NCBI GenBank assembly: GCA_947474205.1
Contig: CANJIC010000106.1
Span: 1 to 7,029 of the forward strand
Source: Planctomycetaceae bacterium
GTDB lineage: Bacteria > Planctomycetota > Phycisphaerae > Phycisphaerales > SM1A02
Reading direction: 5' to 3'
DNA: 7,029 nt
How positions within the stretch are numbered: the stretch's first letter is position 1; every line of letters starts with the position of its first letter. Made by a program: the position numbers and the translations under genes. Shown here in pieces: positions 792-7,012 of this stretch. The notes below the pieces were generated by a model. That model was not told the DNA's origin and made no database searches. It saw only the letters and a list, made by a program, of their open reading frames with translations.

Positions 792-866
792 TCACTGTGT
801 GCGCGTGGCTGGCATGCGCGGCATTTCTACTTTCTTCAAAAATTTTTATATACATTGAACAACAAC

Positions 867-1637
867 ATGCGACACACTTCAAAAATAATTGCAGACATGG
901 GCGCCACGCCGTGGCAAATTTTAAAATCTTGCATTCAATGCGCAACTGTGCTTGCGGCACTCTTGTGCGTGAGCGCATGCGACGGCGGGAACACTGCAAC
1001 TGGCGCGACCAAAATTCGATTGCAGCTGAATTGGGTTCCAGAGCCTGAATTTGGCGGCATTTACGCCGCGGCTCAAGATGGTTTGTTCAAGGCGCAAGGT
1101 CTTGATGTTGAAATTATCAAAGGGGCGGCGGGAACTTCCGTGTCGCAACTTATTGCGCAAGGCGCATGTGAAGCCGGCGTTGTCAGCGCCGATCAAGTGT
1201 TGACGTTGCGCGAGCAAGGCGGAAATATTGTCGCCACGTTTTCTATCTTTGAGCGCTCGCCCATGGGCTTCATGACGCACGCATCGTCAAGTGCCAACTC
1301 ATTGGAGCAGGTTTGGAAAGGTTCAGGCAAGTTGGCCATTGAGCCAGGCATGCCATTCTTAAAGTGGATGGAAAAAACATACGGACCATCCACATGCACG
1401 CTTATTCCATACGGCGGCTCGTTGGTTGTCTTTCAAAGCGATCAAGCCGCGGCCACACAATGCTTTGTCACGGCGGAACCGGTGGAGATGGATTTGAAAA
1501 AGATTCCCGTGAAAGTTTTTGATATTGCTGAAAGCGGCTACGACCCTTTCACGGCCGTGGTGTGCAGCTCTCAAACATGGCTGGATAAGAATCGTGAGAC
1601 CGCCATTAAGTTGTCGCGCGCCATGCGCGTAGGCTAG
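867..1637 (+). CDS. ABC transporter substrate-binding lipoprotein, NMT1/THI5-like, cut short by an in-frame TAG
   Basis: This is the periplasmic binding component paired with the upstream permease. Counting from ATG 867, a hydrophobic stretch (about 25-37) ends in the lipobox VSAC, with Cys38 as the likely lipid-anchored residue. Next comes the family hallmark LQLNWVPEPEFGGIYAAAQD, then GLF and GLDVEI (about 50-80). The region GACEAGVVSADQVLTLREQG follows, and then an AIEPG segment. This matches NMT1/SsuA/ThiY-like proteins that bind pyrimidine or sulfonate-type ligands. The frame stops at TAG 1635-1637 after 256 residues, short for a family of roughly 320-350, and continues in phase to 1916. 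The start is uncertain. TTG 855, ATG 867 and ATG 897 share the frame and none has a convincing ribosome-binding site. ATG 897 would give a shorter, conventional signal peptide. If the stop is real, the protein lacks its C-terminal helices and is probably non-functional. Confidence 0.8.
   Translation: MRHTSKIIADMGATPWQILKSCIQCATVLAALLCVSACDGGNTATGATKIRLQLNWVPEPEFGGIYAAAQDGLFKAQGLDVEIIKGAAGTSVSQLIAQGACEAGVVSADQVLTLREQGGNIVATFSIFERSPMGFMTHASSSANSLEQVWKGSGKLAIEPGMPFLKWMEKTYGPSTCTLIPYGGSLVVFQSDQAAATQCFVTAEPVEMDLKKIPVKVFDIAESGYDPFTAVVCSSQTWLDKNRETAIKLSRAMRVG
1635..1637 (+). other. In-frame TAG at an expected Trp codon of the binding protein
   Basis: The reading frame reads ...KLSRAMRVG, then TAG, then VNNRNDPAKYNPAIAAMNP... 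without any shift. Related binding proteins usually have a Gly-Trp pair here, before a D-P-x-x-x-N segment. TAG differs from the Trp codon TGG by one base, so a G-to-A change explains it. TAG also ends the permease (789-791), this gene (1914-1916) and the large minus-strand gene (2934-2936), which argues against a reassigned TAG in this organism. Confidence 0.75.
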
Positions 1638-1916
1638 GTTAATAACAGGAACGATCCAGCGAAATACAATCCCGCCATCGCGGCCATGAATCCTTCCATG
1701 TCGCTTGAAGCCATGAATATTGCAGCGCAACGCATGCGCAAATATGTGCTTGGTCCGTGGACGCAGGCGCATGGATATGGATCTATGGATCCCGCGCGCT
1801 GGACCGCGCTTGTATCGCAAATGCAATCCATGGGGCAACTCACCAAAAGCGTTCCCGCTCAAGAAGTGATGGTGGATTTGCTCATGTCGGAGCCAGTTGT
1901 GGCGGCACAAAAGTAG
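1638..1916 (+). pseudogene. C-terminal segment of the substrate-binding protein, in phase beyond the TAG
   Basis: The frame stays open for 92 codons after the TAG and ends with TAG at 1914-1916. It encodes family-like sequence: NDPAKYNPAIAAMNPSMSLE, then AMNIAAQRMRKYVLGP and a C-terminal helical stretch. In NMT1/SsuA-type proteins, N-P-x-M-S-x-E-A marks the last lobe helices, so this is the missing end of the protein at 867-1637. The whole frame from 867 would be about 349 residues, normal for the family. An internal ATG at 1686 has no ribosome-binding site, and a separate C-terminal peptide would not fold as a binding protein. It is best read as one gene broken by a nonsense change or a base error. 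Confidence 0.75.
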
Positions 1917-1986: not shown

Positions 1987-2004
1987 TTGAATAGACTGCT
2001 TTGC

Positions 2005-2802
2005 ATGAAACCAACGCCACGGCCCACGCTGAAAGTGTTTGCAACCACGCTTTGGGAATATCCCAGTCAGCACTATGACGCCGTGGACAAGGACGGTTTC
2101 AAAGTCACCATGCAGGGCGACAAGGATTATGTGGGCGCCACGCCGTCGTGGGTGTTGTGGCAGTTATTGACCCGCTACACGCGCGTGGGCGACAGCGTGC
2201 TTGATCCCATGTGCGGTTCTGGAACCACCATTGATGTGTGCGCGCACTTGGAGCGCAAACCCGTTGCATTTGATTTGGATCCGTCGCGCGAGGACATTGC
2301 GCAGGCCGACGCGCGCAAACTTCCCATCGCCGATGCAAGCGTGGACTTTGCATTCATTGATCCACCATATTCGACGCACGTGAATTACTCCGAGGACCCG
2401 CGCTGTATCGGCAAGCTTGACGCGGGCGATGAGAATGGTGGACGTGACTATTACCAAGCCATGCATTTGGTGCTGAAGCAGATGCACCGCGTGTTGAAGA
2501 ACCGCCGCTATATGGCGATTTATGTCAGCGATTCGTGGCGCAAGCGCCGCGGCGAGGCGGGCAAGGGGGCGGGGGTATTCATGCCGATTGGGTTTGAGTT
2601 GTTCGCCATGATGCGCGAGTTGTTTCAGCCCGTGGACATTATTTGCGTGGCGCGCAAAAATTCAAAGTTGGAAAGCGGCGCGTTCCGCAAAGGCGCCGAG
2701 GACGGAAATTTTTATCTGCGCGGATTCAACTATTTAATGATTGGCAAGAAGGTGGATGATGAAGCGCCAACGCCAGCGCCAAGCAAAAAGTGGAAGGCTT
2801 GA
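2005..2802 (+). CDS. Orphan N4/N6-type DNA methyltransferase-like protein (SAM-dependent)
   Basis: This is a 265-residue class I S-adenosylmethionine methyltransferase from ATG 2005; an in-phase TTG at 1987 would add six residues. Neither start has a clear ribosome-binding site. The SAM-binding loop DPMCGSGTT is at 67-75, and an acidic strand end (FDLDP) follows at about 89-93. The catalytic DPPY is at 119-122, followed by STHVNYSEDPRCIG. The N-terminal TTLWEYPSQHY and the late FYLRGFNYLMIGKK stretch look like conserved parts of bacterial proteins annotated as DNA methylase N-4/N-6. DPPY fits methyl transfer to an exocyclic amino group, most often adenine N6. Motif I before the catalytic motif, with DARKLP...SVDFAFIDPPY between them, also recalls Trm11-type RNA methyltransferases, so the substrate is open. 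No restriction enzyme gene is adjacent, so an orphan role is likelier than a restriction system. The final 15 residues (PTPAPSKKWKA) are a basic, proline-rich tail. Confidence 0.85.
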   Translation: MKPTPRPTLKVFATTLWEYPSQHYDAVDKDGFKVTMQGDKDYVGATPSWVLWQLLTRYTRVGDSVLDPMCGSGTTIDVCAHLERKPVAFDLDPSREDIAQADARKLPIADASVDFAFIDPPYSTHVNYSEDPRCIGKLDAGDENGGRDYYQAMHLVLKQMHRVLKNRRYMAIYVSDSWRKRRGEAGKGAGVFMPIGFELFAMMRELFQPVDIICVARKNSKLESGAFRKGAEDGNFYLRGFNYLMIGKKVDDEAPTPAPSKKWKA

Positions 2803-2933: not shown

Positions 2934-5336
2934 CTAATTCGCCGAATAAATCCAGGGCGTATCCACCCACTCGGTCAGTTTGCTCCACGCGTTGGAATCT
3001 TCGCCAGCCATCAGCGCCATTTCGCGTAACGCGCGCACATTAATTTCATCGCGCACATTCAGCAAAATCGCCAGCACGGGCGCACGTCGTTGCAGTTGAT
3101 CAAAATTATTTTTGGAAATGGTGAAGTCATCATTTGCCCACAGTTTGCGCGCCACAATAATTCTGTTGAGTAATTCATCTTGCGCGCTTTGGCGTGTGGC
3201 AAGCAGTTCGGTGGCGTGCTCGCGGCTTTCATTCGGTGGCAATTCCACCATAATTTGATCAAACATATCGTCGGCGGGGTGGCGGTCGTAGAAAATTTCC
3301 GGATAGGCGAAGCGCCAATACGCGTTTTTCAGTTCGCGCACGTCGTCGCTGGCAAGGGCAAGGCACGTGTCATGTAAAAGTTCCTGCTGCACGGCAACGC
3401 GCGCGCGGACTGTTGGCTCCACGCTCTTGGTCGCCGCGGCAAGAATTTCACGCAAGCGCTCCTCGCTGGCCACTTGGTCCTTCTCGTCAAACTTGAACTC
3501 CATGGTCATTTTTTTCATGTTCAACACAAAGCTTCGAAGCGCGTCAATGGTGGCGGTGCGCAGACGATCTGAACTTTCTACCAGCGCAACCGCTGCGTCA
3601 ATAATGGCAGCGTCCGTAATGGCGCTGGCCGCTGGCGAAAGTTTGGCCTGCGCGAACGCGGTTGGAACATCAATGGTGGCTTCGCGGTCAATCTTCATCA
3701 GCGAACCCATGGGAATTTTTCGCCAGTCAATACTAGAGGCAATCACGACACGTTCAATGCGCAGCCGTTCAATACGCGGATCACTTTGATCAAGACCAAG
3801 CACGGCCGCAAGCTCAGCGATTGTGTCGTCTTCAATCTTGGTGAGCGCGTTGCGCGCGATATCAACTTCAGACACAAGAGCGCGCAACCGCCGCTGCGCC
3901 TCGGGAACGGACATGTCGGGCGAAGACGCTTCTTTCAGGCGGTCCTCGGCCACTTTTATTTTGGTCAAGTGTTCTTGAAAGGTCTTGTTCCAACTTTCAA
4001 CACTGTCAGCAAGTAGCGTCATGGACACTGCGTTTTCACTGTCGCCCTGTGGCTGCAACGGGCGAAGGCGGCTTTCCACCCATGGCTGAAAGTCTGGCGG
4101 CAGAAACAGCGCGAACGTTTCCGCGCTCTTGCGAATGGGCCAACCATCTGGCGCGGCGTCGGGCGGCTCTGGCGTGAGCACGGCGAACACATCGCTAAGC
4201 GATTCGCTTGGCAACAGCGCGGCAATGCTTTCACGAAGTTGTTGACCGGACTGCTTGCGAAGTGGCGCGAGTAAATCCTTGTATGGATCGCCAGCCACCT
4301 TGATCATGGCCATGTTGCGTTGCTTCAACAATTCTTGGCGCGCATCCTTTGCCAGTTGCGCGCGCGGATCATCTTTGCCGCGCAGCATTGCGGTTGCAAT
4401 TCGCAGCGCGATTTCGCGATCATCTTTCTCCCACTCCAGCACAATCTTGGCAACCTCAACCCGTTGCGATTGCTGCAAGTTTGGCAAGCGCGTAATCAAC
4501 AATGGCGCGACCTTTTGCCAATCGGAGGGCTTCCAAGATTCGTGATTCACAAATCCAATCTTGAAGCGCTCCACCACGTCTTGATCCGTAATGCCTTGCA
4601 GCATTTCAATGGTGCGCACATTCAGCGCAGTCATTTTGCTCTTGGCTAAATTAATGGCATCGTCATTGCCATCCATGGGCCGGCGAATTGACGCGGCCGC
4701 GAATTCGTTGGCCGCTGGAAGCAAGGCGCGGGTGTAGGTCTTCATGTGTTCGTCAAACAAGGCGCGCTGCTCTGGCGTGAATTTCAAGGTGTTCAACACC
4801 TCGCGTAAATCAATAAATGATTGAGCGGCTGGATTGACAATGCCTTTGGCGCGCGCAATGGCGCGGTCCGTGGAAAGATCCTCCATCATTGACGCATGAT
4901 CCGCGCCAACACAATCGCTCCACTGCGCGAACAAATTTTGGTCCAACAATGAAAGTTGCGACAACAACGCCCCGTGGCGCTTGCGCAGGTGCTCCATAAA
5001 TTCCTGGTCTTTCAACCACGATCCTTCCATGCGCGGATCAAGCGCATTGTTGCGTTGACTGATGGAAGCGATGATTGATGTCATTTCCCGTTGCACCGCG
5101 GCTTGCCACTGCAGTAAATATTCGTCATGAATCTTGTCAATGCACGTCCAGCTTTTTTGGTCACCGCGATAGCCGGCGCGAATCAAACTGCTGCTTCCCA
5201 CGGGCATGGGCACCACATCAAATCGAAATGGATTTTCTTTGCACGCGGGCAGTGCCAGCGCGCACAAAGCCAGAAGCATGCTGAGATGAAAGACTCGCGG
5301 CAGCCATTTCAGGTGTTGAAGAAATCCACAACGCAT
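2934..5336 (-). CDS. Large putative lipoprotein of unknown function, mostly alpha-helical
   Basis: I do not recognise this 800-residue protein. The N-terminus has basic residues, a hydrophobic stretch at about 18-29 and the lipobox-like LPAC ending at Cys32. That suggests export and lipid anchoring, although Pro at position -2 is not ideal. The rest has no membrane segment and is rich in Ala, Leu, Glu, Arg and Lys, as in an all-helical protein. The segment LKFTPEQRALFDEHM (about 184-198) recalls the helical LTxxQ-type pattern of periplasmic Spy/CpxP-like proteins, a weak resemblance only. Charged, coiled-coil-prone helices run from about 445 to 530. No catalytic motif is visible. The start is ATG 5336 (reading leftward) with only a weak AAAGA upstream; Met20 is too close to the lipobox to be a better start. 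It ends in TAG, converges with the methyltransferase and diverges from the hairpin array. The full length is open and codon-like, so it is a real gene. Confidence 0.85.
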   Translation of the reverse strand: MRCGFLQHLKWLPRVFHLSMLLALCALALPACKENPFRFDVVPMPVGSSSLIRAGYRGDQKSWTCIDKIHDEYLLQWQAAVQREMTSIIASISQRNNALDPRMEGSWLKDQEFMEHLRKRHGALLSQLSLLDQNLFAQWSDCVGADHASMMEDLSTDRAIARAKGIVNPAAQSFIDLREVLNTLKFTPEQRALFDEHMKTYTRALLPAANEFAAASIRRPMDGNDDAINLAKSKMTALNVRTIEMLQGITDQDVVERFKIGFVNHESWKPSDWQKVAPLLITRLPNLQQSQRVEVAKIVLEWEKDDREIALRIATAMLRGKDDPRAQLAKDARQELLKQRNMAMIKVAGDPYKDLLAPLRKQSGQQLRESIAALLPSESLSDVFAVLTPEPPDAAPDGWPIRKSAETFALFLPPDFQPWVESRLRPLQPQGDSENAVSMTLLADSVESWNKTFQEHLTKIKVAEDRLKEASSPDMSVPEAQRRLRALVSEVDIARNALTKIEDDTIAELAAVLGLDQSDPRIERLRIERVVIASSIDWRKIPMGSLMKIDREATIDVPTAFAQAKLSPAASAITDAAIIDAAVALVESSDRLRTATIDALRSFVLNMKKMTMEFKFDEKDQVASEERLREILAAATKSVEPTVRARVAVQQELLHDTCLALASDDVRELKNAYWRFAYPEIFYDRHPADDMFDQIMVELPPNESREHATELLATRQSAQDELLNRIIVARKLWANDDFTISKNNFDQLQRRAPVLAILLNVRDEINVRALREMALMAGEDSNAWSKLTEWVDTPWIYSAN

Positions 5337-5501
5337 GCAAGCATCTTTGCAACTATTTCTGCAAATTGACTTCAGTCGGTGGTCAATCTGACCGAATTCG
5401 TAAAAAGAGGCAGATTTTTGGCTTCATTAGATGAATTTAAGAAATTTCACAAAGGAATTTGCATTTTGAAAATTGAATTCGACATTGTTTCCAGTGCAAG
5501 A
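5337..5501. other. AT-rich divergent intergenic region, presumed promoters for both directions
   Basis: This stretch separates the minus-strand lipoprotein gene from the plus-strand hairpin array. It is clearly more AT-rich than its surroundings, especially 5395-5490. It holds small palindromes: TGCAA (5336-5340) with TTGCA (5347-5351), and GGTCA (5381-5385) with TGACC (5389-5393). -35-like hexamers such as TTGACT (5366-5371) and TTGCAT (5459-5464) lack a good -10 partner, so no promoter is assigned. A start site for the array is expected near its right edge. Confidence 0.4.
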
Positions 5502-5579
5502 CGGGCCACGGAGGGGTGGTCCGAAAGGCAAGTTGGGAACGGCCTCGCAGGCGTAAGGAACCCGCGAGGTTGGAAAAGG

Positions 5580-5607
5580 GTTCGCGTTTGGGAAAGCGCG
5601 AATGTTG
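5580..5607 (+). repeat. Hairpin repeat, copy 1 (TTTGGGAAAG loop)
   Basis: The stem GTTCGCG (5580-5586) with CGCGAAT (5597-5603) encloses TTTGGGAAAG, in which TTT and AAA can also pair and leave GGG exposed. It matches copy 2 (5649-5676) at 24 of 28 positions, and the 18-base core is identical. Confidence 0.75.
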
Positions 5608-5648
5608 GAAAGAACTCGCGGGCGGGAACCCGTGAGAGTTGCAAAGGA

Positions 5649-5676
5649 ACTTGCGTTTGGGAAAGCGCGAGTGTTG
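5649..5676 (+). repeat. Hairpin repeat, copy 2 (TTTGGGAAAG loop)
   Basis: The stem ACTTGCG (5649-5655) with CGCGAGT (5666-5672) encloses the same TTTGGGAAAG loop as copy 1, 69 bases away. All four differences from copy 1 fall in the stem and keep pairing: T-A becomes C-G, G.U becomes A-U, and C-G becomes U.G. Confidence 0.75.
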
Positions 5677-5863
5677 AAAAGAGAGTGCGGTTGAGTGAAG
5701 TTCGACCGCAATATGAAATGGCTCGCCGCGGAGGGAAACCGCGAGCGAGTGGGGGGAAAAGGGTTGGACGCGAGGAGGGTCGCGCCCAACTGAACTGCGA
5801 AATGGATTGTGGCGGTTGGAGTGAAAAGCAAATTCAAATCAGCGCGTCGGTGGTGAAGTTGTG

Positions 5864-5888
5864 TTGCGTGACGTCCTTCGTCACGCAA
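5864..5888 (+). promoter_or_regulatory. Perfect 10-bp hairpin just upstream of the beta-helix gene
   Basis: TTGCGTGACG (5864-5873) and CGTCACGCAA (5879-5888) pair fully around the loop TCCTT. No T-run follows, so it is not a standard intrinsic terminator on the plus strand. It lies 29 bases before the ATG at 5918. Its pyrimidine loop is the exact complement of AAGGA, which occurs in the array (5555-5559 and 5644-5648), and can pair over four bases with the AAGG of the ribosome-binding site. A regulatory switch is possible but unproven. Confidence 0.55.
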
Positions 5889-5903
5889 AATCAAGTCAAC
5901 TCT

Positions 5904-5909
5904 GAAAGG
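5904..5909 (+). promoter_or_regulatory. Shine-Dalgarno-like site of the beta-helix gene
   Basis: GAAAGG lies eight bases before ATG 5918 and decides that start. Confidence 0.5.
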
Positions 5910-5917
5910 CGCTCATC

Positions 5918-7012
5918 ATGAACAATACAAATCAATCAAATCAACTTGGACAAATGCAAAGCAACCAGAAGCAAATTCTTGGCGGCCTAAGTTTGACTCT
6001 CGTGGTGGCGGCTTCATTGGTGGCGTTGTGGCGCGGTTCATTTGTGAGCTCATTGAACGCCGATATCGCGAATTTGGTCGAAGACACATCCACGGCTCAT
6101 GTTGACGATGTCAGTGATAACACCCGCAGCGTGATTTTGGTTCCAGAACAAGTTTCAAGCATTCAAGCAGCTATCAATCAAGCGACTGACGGCGCCATTA
6201 TTTTTGTGGCGCCTGGCCAATACCGTGAAAATATCCGTATTCAAGGCAAAAATATTGTGCTCCATTCCACCGGGGGAGCGGCAAGCGTCAGCATTCTTGG
6301 CGATGGCCGCGATGGTCCGATCGTGCTGATTGAGAATTCCAAATTCATGCTCGATGGGTTTTGTATGCAAGGTGGCCGCGGTGAGAATGGCCGTGGCATG
6401 GTGCTGCAAGGCAGCAACGCCACCATTATGAATTGCACATTCACCAACAACATGGGTGGCGTGTCGCTGACCAATTCACAAGCGCAATTTGATCACTGCG
6501 CGATCGCGCTGAATCAATCGGCTGTGCAAGGCGGAGGTCTATGGGCTTGGCAATCCGATGTGCGCATGAGTGATTGCACCGTGAACGACAACGCGACTGG
6601 AACATTTGGTGGAGGCGTGTACGCCCTGGGCGGTTGCATGCAACTGTTCAACGTTTCATTCATGAACAATCGCGTAAAAAGCGGCGCGTGGGGCGGTGGT
6701 TTGTACAGCGACCGCGCCAATGTCAATTTGACCGAATGCGTGATGCAGGGAAACTTCTCGCATGAATCGGGCTCGGCCATGTACGTGCTTGATGCCAGCG
6801 CGACGATTCGTGCTAGTTCGTTTAAGAACAATAGTTTTACCGGCGCGGCCACCGTGGTGGGCGCCAACGCGCAGTTTGATATTCAAAATTCAATTTTGGA
6901 GGCGGACAATGAAAGCATTGCCGCGGCGGTTTCAAGCAATGAAGCGGCCATTGCAATGGCGCAAGCGGATGCCATTGAAACTGAATCGCAGATGATTGCA
7001 GTGAAACAATGA
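5918..7012 (+). CDS. Membrane-anchored right-handed parallel beta-helix (PbH1) protein
   Basis: This 364-residue protein has a polar Gln/Asn-rich start (1-20), then one hydrophobic segment at about 21-38. That segment lacks an obvious cleavage site or lipobox, so a signal anchor with the rest outside the cytoplasm is likely. The first beta-helix cap reads ILVPEQVSSIQAAINQATDG, then IIFVAPGQYRENI (about 73-106), a pattern common in bacterial beta-helix proteins. From about 135 to 328 there are about seven coils with repeated N-C-T-F-T-N-N-like turns and GGGL/GGGV corners. Cys residues at 173, 194, 220 and 274 and Asn residues recur at similar coil positions, suggesting internal ladders. A final Ala/Glu-rich helical tail covers about 329-364. 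Such folds bind or cleave polysaccharides or act as surface proteins; no catalytic set is recognisable, so no enzyme activity is assigned. The gene follows the hairpin array and is the only candidate for control by it in cis. It ends in TGA. Confidence 0.85.
   Translation: MNNTNQSNQLGQMQSNQKQILGGLSLTLVVAASLVALWRGSFVSSLNADIANLVEDTSTAHVDDVSDNTRSVILVPEQVSSIQAAINQATDGAIIFVAPGQYRENIRIQGKNIVLHSTGGAASVSILGDGRDGPIVLIENSKFMLDGFCMQGGRGENGRGMVLQGSNATIMNCTFTNNMGGVSLTNSQAQFDHCAIALNQSAVQGGGLWAWQSDVRMSDCTVNDNATGTFGGGVYALGGCMQLFNVSFMNNRVKSGAWGGGLYSDRANVNLTECVMQGNFSHESGSAMYVLDASATIRASSFKNNSFTGAATVVGANAQFDIQNSILEADNESIAAAVSSNEAAIAMAQADAIETESQMIAVKQ

Follow-up and report, generated by a model that had tools for sequence, protein, structure and literature searches.

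A conserved array of hairpins upstream of a planctomycete beta-helix gene: a probable structured mRNA leader and tentative CsrA target

What an array of regularly spaced hairpins does between two divergent open reading frames is the question raised by the DNA studied here, a 7,029-nt stretch of Planctomycetaceae bacterium (GenBank assembly GCA_947474205.1, contig CANJIC010000106.1, forward strand), hereafter the window (W). From left to right, the window carries a BPD-type permease, an NMT1/THI5-like binding protein, a DNA methylase, an 800-aa ORF on the minus strand and a beta-helix ORF, and the array occupies the intergenic space between the last two:

2934..5336, minus strand: divergent 800-aa ORF with a lipobox-like N-terminus (read by eye), the 5′ limit of the intergenic region
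5918..7012, plus strand: beta-helix ORF of 364 aa (PF13229, E = 3.6e-11), the gene downstream of the leader

The 800-aa ORF had no match in Pfam or NCBIfam. For the beta-helix protein, NCBIfam returned a sub-cut-off NosD match alone (37 vs 300 bits), the profile matched none of the solved structures, and 36 related proteins were listed, one of them 99% identical. Sequence related to the lipoprotein-like ORF seemingly lies divergent to the beta-helix gene in several relatives (by eye). Further left, the NMT1/THI5-like ORF (855-1916, plus strand) has one in-frame TAG at 1635-1637, with the same frame open on to 1916, and may be a pseudogene or reflect a sequencing or assembly error. The N6/N4 DNA methylase gene (1987-2802, plus strand) is solitary and close to the beta-helix locus; a similar methylase C-terminal stretch seemingly lies upstream of the beta-helix gene in L071 (by eye).

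The preliminary description of the window had proposed about ten hairpins in this interval. All six stems that it named were found, with ends at most one base off (5502-5523, 5615-5636, 5686-5710, 5721-5750, 5762-5791 and 5864-5888), and the centre-to-centre spacing of hairpins 1 to 8 was as it had claimed (43.5, 35.5, 34, 35, 37.5, 37.5 and 41). Its count is fair, since we count eight hairpins as solid, the first of them enclosed by an outer stem (P0), plus a solid terminal hairpin (5864-5888) and weaker pairing at 5793-5840. The unpaired parts are purine-rich, as it had also said: within 5491-5791, purines make up 86% of the unpaired bases (115/133) and 50% of the paired ones (84/168). The elements of the array are as follows, all on the plus strand:

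5491..5536, plus strand: P0, outer stem around hairpin 1 (5491-5497 with 5528-5536); 97.4% of cells paired in 11 sequences, no pair changed on both sides
5502..5523, plus strand: H1, 8-bp stem with an invariant GGAGGG loop; compensatory changes in two pairs (5504-5521 and 5509-5516) in 11 sequences, 5504-5521 being A-C in L005-L007
5540..5572, plus strand: H2, loop containing AAGGAAC; compensatory changes in three pairs in 10 sequences
5581..5602, plus strand: H3, 9-bp stem with a GGGA loop (UGGGAA if the last A-U opens), a repeat unit with H5; three one-sided pairs, none compensatory
5615..5636, plus strand: H4, 8-bp stem with a CGGGAA hexaloop; two one-sided pairs, none compensatory
5649..5672, plus strand: H5, 10-bp stem with a GGGA loop; two compensatory pairs with L063 included
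5686..5710, plus strand: H6, 9-bp stem, its loop without GGA in the window; one compensatory pair, with L063 as sole source
5721..5750, plus strand: H7, 11 pairs with a bulged A and an AGGGAAA loop; stem letters invariant in 11 sequences
5762..5791, plus strand: H8, 11 pairs with one mismatch; three compensatory pairs in 13 sequences, GGAGGG loop in 8 of 15 loci
5864..5888, plus strand: H10, terminal 10-bp hairpin; two compensatory pairs in ten sequences

We then compared the folding energy of positions 5480-5920 with that of 100 dinucleotide shuffles. Results showed that the plus strand folds at -180.9 kcal/mol against -147.2 ± 5.1 for the controls (z = -6.56), none of which was as good, which bears out the earlier claim that pairing of this density is not expected by chance. 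The minus strand is equally stable relative to its shuffles (z = -6.64), so the strand cannot be told from energy alone. The array owes its regularity partly to repeats: two 45-nt units, one around H3 and one around H5, share 82% identity, and the unit between them 62%.

Sequence comparison required relatives. A genome scan with the beta-helix protein as sole query gave no loci; repeated with a 12-member family alignment, it gave 15 (L001-L015), of which L001-L012 had their upstream DNA examined. The complete array was present in L001-L009, with a mean column identity with the window of 90%. In L010, L011 and L012 we found a shorter row; H1 is part of it, and the 22-nt core of its H8 matches the window letter for letter. 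Genome G399 (L063) carries P0, H1, H2, one H5-like hairpin, H6, H7 and an H8-like hairpin, with no counterparts of H3 and H4, and G439 (L099) carries a short form that was found through the H8 core. Together with the window these make 15 loci, the other 14 in further genomes, all within one family of the collection's taxonomy: the full array in nine close relatives and reduced forms in five more distant ones. In all 15 the array lies 5′ of the same beta-helix gene, most loci having been found through that gene and G439 through the H8 core. The relatives are recorded as Phycisphaerales from Lake Baikal, Planctomycetota, Planctomycetia, a Singulisphaera and uncultured bins; the other bins are presumably lake samples, judging from their codes. 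Motif search and reading of the upstream DNA revealed no recognisable array in 13 more distant genomes of the family that have a beta-helix homologue, some of whose gene starts are unsure.

Searches with the nucleic acid itself outlined the same distribution. With blastn, 13 genomes had one matching locus each, ten at E = 1.9e-22 or better and three (G010-G012) by the H8 core only (E = 1.7e-5 to 3.7e-4); among the matches listed, the next ones were at E = 0.055 or worse, except for a second piece of the G399 locus. A covariance model of P0-H2, run with stricter filters over 181 genomes of the family, gave matches at E = 0.01 or better in 12 genomes, ten of them strong (E = 2.3e-18 or better). 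That search recovered the known locus of G010 (E = 0.0036) and missed the short forms in G011, G012 and G439; its matches in G455 and at a second place in G010 fall in coding DNA and look by eye like chance. Allowing up to two mismatches, the H8-core pattern matched 13 of the 181 family genomes vs three for a reversed control (G377, G338 and G429 were left uninspected) and 7 of 298 genomes of the class vs four for the control (G090, G161, G281, G296 and G060 uninspected). A class-wide protein search, of which the top rows were used, found a beta-helix match at E = 0.001 in 202 of the 298 genomes. No match to the region was found in a phage collection.

These relatives allowed us to ask whether stems are preserved. 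Of 1067 cells in the ten close sequences 97.4% are paired, and sliding the partners lowers this to 30-44%; among the columns, 48 of the 133 unpaired ones and 36 of the 168 paired ones vary. Across the nine hairpin blocks, 13 of the 93 pairs are compensatory over 10-13 rows, none of them in H3, H4 or H7; the cells of these 93 pairs comprise 843 Watson-Crick, 133 G-U, 10 A-C, 18 other and 3 gaps. In this table L063 was aligned manually for P0/H1, H5, H6 and H7, as were L010-L012 for H8; fitting the columns cost L063 one loop base in H6; L063 was excluded for H2, H3, H4, H8 and H10, and L099 was excluded throughout. Within the close group alone, 4 pairs change on both sides against a shuffle mean of 1.9, and 34 of 500 shuffles reach 4, a weak signal that follows from the ∼90% identity of the sequences. 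When L063 is added for P0-H2, 4 both-side pairs are seen against 1.3 in shuffles, a count reached by 2 of 500. Thus, covariation in homologues, which had been suggested as a check and which we counted by pair tables against shuffles, is present and modest. Having no varying pairs, H7 is uninformative in this respect and points instead to a sequence-specific constraint. Its stem is unchanged letter for letter even in L063, where other stems differ, a constraint that exceeds the needs of pairing.

The changes also speak to the strand. One-step departures from Watson-Crick pairing are G-U in 22 pair columns and A-C in 8 (P = 0.016, kinship ignored), an excess that favours the plus strand, which is the strand of the beta-helix gene. 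The same excess bears on whether the region is merely a DNA-level repeat or mobile element, or else an undetected coding region. Internal repeats in H3-H5 would fit the former. For the latter, a 180-codon ORF (5379-5921) spans the array, and within 5500-5795, 8 of the 10 close loci keep one forward frame open and all 10 keep two reverse frames open. Nevertheless, G-U departures exceed A-C ones, codon periodicity is absent, among the matches listed each of 13 genomes has a single matching locus, and the number of hairpins differs in L063, L010-L012 and L099; we disfavour this explanation as highly improbable. The coding reading was rejected on the distribution of variable columns by position modulo 3, which is 32, 24 and 31 of 99, 99 and 98 (5500-5795, ten loci). 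The earlier statement that no protein explains the pairing is consistent with this lack of codon-like conservation across the region.

To our question of whether the RNA belongs to a named family, the Rfam search that the preliminary description had called for gave a negative answer: nothing in the region reached a gathering score, in agreement with its remark that it knew of no such family. Among matches listed to E = 5 in the window, the region was overlapped just by STnc490 (20.2 bits vs a gathering score of 56) and, on the minus strand, SNORD25 (20.3 vs 39), and in the loci of six relatives nothing but a tRNA rose above gathering. The Rhodopirellula-1 motif, a candidate structured RNA of Proteobacteria and Planctomycetes, bears no Rfam number in the portion of its description consulted, and the Rfam scan may therefore not cover it (Weinberg 2010, PMC2864571). 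The accessible literature on CsrA and structured RNAs in Planctomycetes and on CsrA-titrating leaders, in which subscription journals are mostly not represented, yielded no description of the array RNA. Taken together, conservation with changes that keep the stems in 14 further genomes, the lack of a convincing match in Rfam and the lack of a coding signal support the original suggestion of an undescribed structured RNA.

Conservation does not stop at the last hairpin, continuing through a further helix, P9, into the ribosome-binding region of the beta-helix gene. At the other end, the array is preceded by a block that resembles a promoter:

5458..5487, plus strand: promoter-like block TTTGCATTTTGAAAATTGAATTCGACATTG, directly 5′ of the RNA, near-identical in W and L001-L009
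5838..5916, plus strand: P9, predicted helix closing the 3′ domain in MFE folds (window pairs 5841-5845 with 5909-5913)
5857..5901, plus strand: P10, AGTTG/CAACT around hairpin 10 (5857-5861 with 5897-5901); 98% of cells paired in 10 sequences
5905..5909, plus strand: Shine-Dalgarno-like AAAGG of the beta-helix gene, abutting P9 (read by eye)

By eye, no standard -35/-10 pair was recognised in the block, and a CTTGC...TTGAAT/TTGGAT stretch partly similar to it occurs in L063, L032, L064, L012 and L099. The block may be a promoter, with a presumed transcription start near 5485-5490. P9 covers bases between the Shine-Dalgarno sequence and the start codon and is predicted in 13 of the 15 loci. 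MFE folding of the 3′ domain gives P9 in W, L001-L009 and L063; in L012 and L099 its place is taken by a helix whose sequence is quite unlike it (GAUCC/GGAUC and CAAGAUCC/GGAUCUUG); L010 has a shorter P9 over part of the Shine-Dalgarno sequence, and L011 has none. The helix of the window has five pairs in the MFE fold and one C-C mismatch, its 3′ arm starting at the last G of AAAGG; in relatives it extends to 5838/5916, and in several of them it has eight or nine pairs and ends a few bases before the AUG. In ten sequences 95% of the P9 cells are paired, with zero changes on both sides. P10 appears in a span-limited fold of W and its stretch is paired otherwise in the MFE of the whole 3′ domain, so that this helix is uncertain in the window. 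P0 was not seen in L010-L012 and L099. H10 was rejected as an intrinsic terminator on reading the window, where AATCAAG and no U-tract follows it.

Three features argue for a 5′ leader rather than a free-standing RNA: where the array lies, the lack of a U-tract behind its final hairpin, and the helix that covers the ribosome-binding region. The alternative, a CsrB-like sRNA between divergent genes that acts only in trans, has in its favour GGA motifs in hairpin loops and linkers, a layout like that of CsrB (PMC7652899, as far as its text was available). It is very unlikely, since the window reads without an intrinsic terminator after H10, conservation runs via P9 into the ribosome-binding region and the array precedes the same gene in all 15 loci, although that gene was the route to most of them. 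We consider that the array is very probably a conserved structured leader, ∼430 nt long, of the beta-helix mRNA, as modelled by these folds. Leader and gene would be transcribed as one mRNA, P9 would limit translation, and by its predicted anatomy the leader may be a translation switch with an expression platform.

We next considered what such a leader might bind. Of 31 loops read by hand in six loci, 24 contain GGA; permuting bases within loops gives an expectation of 13.8, and none of 5000 permutations was as high. Without L099 it is in 20 of 26 loops against 12.0 expected (P = 0.0006). These loops come from six chosen loci of the 15, were typed by hand from folds and not always as in the MFE (H2 was taken with its inner GG/CC, and the loops of L011, L063 H6 and L099 were read by eye), and L012 and L099 are close kin. 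GGG and GAA are likewise enriched in the loops, so a preference for G-rich or GNRA-like loops could also account for the count. Over the whole RNA the enrichment of GGA is weak in the window (16 vs 12.6 expected, P = 0.127) and has P < 0.05 in 4 of 11 loci tested; for csrB the same count gave 22 vs 14.7 (P = 0.003).

In the available text of PMC7652899, the SELEX consensus for CsrA is RUACARGGAUGU, which we read as placing GGA at loop positions 3-5, and most ligands have at most four contiguous pairs. In H4 the loop has six bases and GGA occupies positions 3-5, as would be the case in H3 and H5 if one A-U pair opens; the stems of the array, at 8-11 bp, are longer than those of most such ligands. 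The sequence CANGGANG is named for high-affinity CsrA sites in the part of PMC4894983 seen. H1 of the window, CACGGAGG, fits CANGGANG, which is present in H1 of 11 of the 15 loci (W, L001-L009 and L063), occurs twice in the linkers of L010 and is missing from L011, L012 and L099. Some positions lack the motif: the H8 loop in L003 and L005-L009 and the H4 loop in L008 have no GGA, L063 has two GGGG loops, and the Shine-Dalgarno sequence of the window contains no GGA. No RNA specificity of any planctomycete CsrA is known to us from the literature.

On these grounds, CsrA as the ligand of the leader is a tentative hypothesis. The RNA would begin near 5490 with a row of independent hairpins (P0/H1-H8) separated by purine linkers, followed by the 3′ domain (P9, H10), whose outer helix would sequester bases lying between Shine-Dalgarno sequence and start codon. 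CsrA dimers could dock at many sites along the hairpin row, in its loops with GGA (GGAGGG, NGGGAA, AAGGAA); once bound, CsrA would alter the 3′ domain and thereby how well the mRNA is translated or how long it lasts, and a leader present in large amounts would also titrate CsrA away from other targets. This whole mechanism, a beta-helix leader bound by CsrA across its GGA loops and acting via the 3′ domain, is the reading that we tentatively favour. A bolder version is rather doubtful: an outsized mRNA-borne CsrA sponge and sensor that takes up several dimers, gates its own surface-protein gene via P9 and buffers the CsrA-FliW balance, present in one clade and built by duplication of a ∼35-nt hairpin-plus-linker unit.

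The hairpin row could instead be read by a different RNA-binding protein or by a metabolite, again acting on translation via P9. Such a leader would share all the leader evidence (folding energy, compensatory pairs and P9), and the invariant H7 stem together with the H8 core, identical in 8 of 15 loci (W, L001, L002, L004, L010, L011, L012 and L099), distant ones included, suggests recognition beyond GGA; GGGA and GGAA loops can also be read as GNRA tetraloops. We regard this as possible but somewhat improbable, given that it lacks a candidate ligand, that the downstream beta-helix gene does not evidently encode a metabolic enzyme or a transporter, and that the number of hairpins differs among lineages, unlike in an aptamer. 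Nor need a specific regulator be involved at all, if SD-like GGAGG loops and stable hairpins captured the 30S subunit or blocked nucleases on the mRNA of an abundant surface protein. GGAGGG in H1 of 15 of 15 loci and in H8 of 8 of 15, the regular spacing and the purine content of the unpaired bases would suit a ribosome standby site or mRNA stabiliser of this kind, which is nonetheless unlikely, as the H8 GGAGG has become GGCGG, GAAGG or GGTGG in L003 and L005-L009, several loops are GGGA and not SD-like, and the invariant H7 stem is left unexplained.

Returning to the CsrA hypothesis, we examined whether the genomes that carry the RNA also encode the protein. A CsrA match was found in all 14 RNA-bearing genomes (12 of 12, plus G399 and G439), and the CsrA translated from G009 (P0037) keeps L4 and R44. 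A strong-scoring CsrA is present in 13 of the 14, adjoining FliW in 12 and cut by the contig end in G005; G439 has a weaker form only. FliW is found in 12 of the 14. Compared with relatives that have a beta-helix homologue and no RNA, the difference is marked for strong CsrA (13/14 vs 2/13, Fisher P = 7e-5, kinship ignored) and FliW is likewise in 2 of those 13, a correlation of FliW-linked CsrA that comprises few independent lineages and MAGs of unknown completeness. CsrA is, however, found in 59 of 61 genomes of the family, and strong CsrA in 13 of 14 RNA carriers vs 45 of 59 genomes without the RNA (P = 0.27). Being near-universal in the family, its presence does not single out the RNA carriers, and as a discriminator it was rejected against this background. 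Eleven relatives with a beta-helix homologue have neither FliW nor strong-scoring CsrA (G309, G188, G208, G337, G341, G345, G239, G362, G378, G389 and G400); in these, motility genes may have been lost at the same time as any such leader or earlier.

CsrA control is known mainly from proteobacteria and Bacillus. If CsrA binds the array, this control would be extended to an uncultured planctomycete lineage, and a leader would be seen to soak up several dimers in bacteria that have FliW; with another ligand, the array is still a conserved candidate regulatory leader of ∼430 nt. Among known systems, the Campylobacter jejuni flaA leader binds and titrates CsrA through two GGA hexaloops in a host with FliW and CsrA (PMC4894983, consulted in part). 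It is alike in belonging to a surface-structure gene, in its GGA-loop stem-loops, in the presence of FliW and CsrA in the host and in a CANGGANG-like site; the two are likened by layout, the flaA hexaloops being 21 nt apart, whereas here eight hairpins extend over 300 nt and a separate helix covers the initiation region. The Salmonella fimAICDHF leader, which belongs to a surface-fibre mRNA and acts as a CsrA antagonist according to the same partial source, is likened by description; it works beside CsrB/C and in another host phylum. CsrB and RsmZ likewise string hairpins in a row and carry GGA both in loops and in unpaired stretches (PMC7652899, in the text available); csrB is 369 nt long. 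Unlike the array, which has neither a terminator nor an Rfam match, CsrB and RsmZ are free-standing sRNAs, and csrB has 6.0 GGA per 100 nt, compared with 3.7 for the window and a range of 3.5-5.1 for the remaining loci counted. By analogy, if our reading is right, the array would work like the known CsrA-binding leaders, with many more sites and a separate start-region helix.

Finally, contigs of just 1.3-1.6 kb, about the length of gene plus leader, carry close homologues of the beta-helix protein (P0001, P0004 and P0006-P0010). These may be transcript assemblies, which would show expression.
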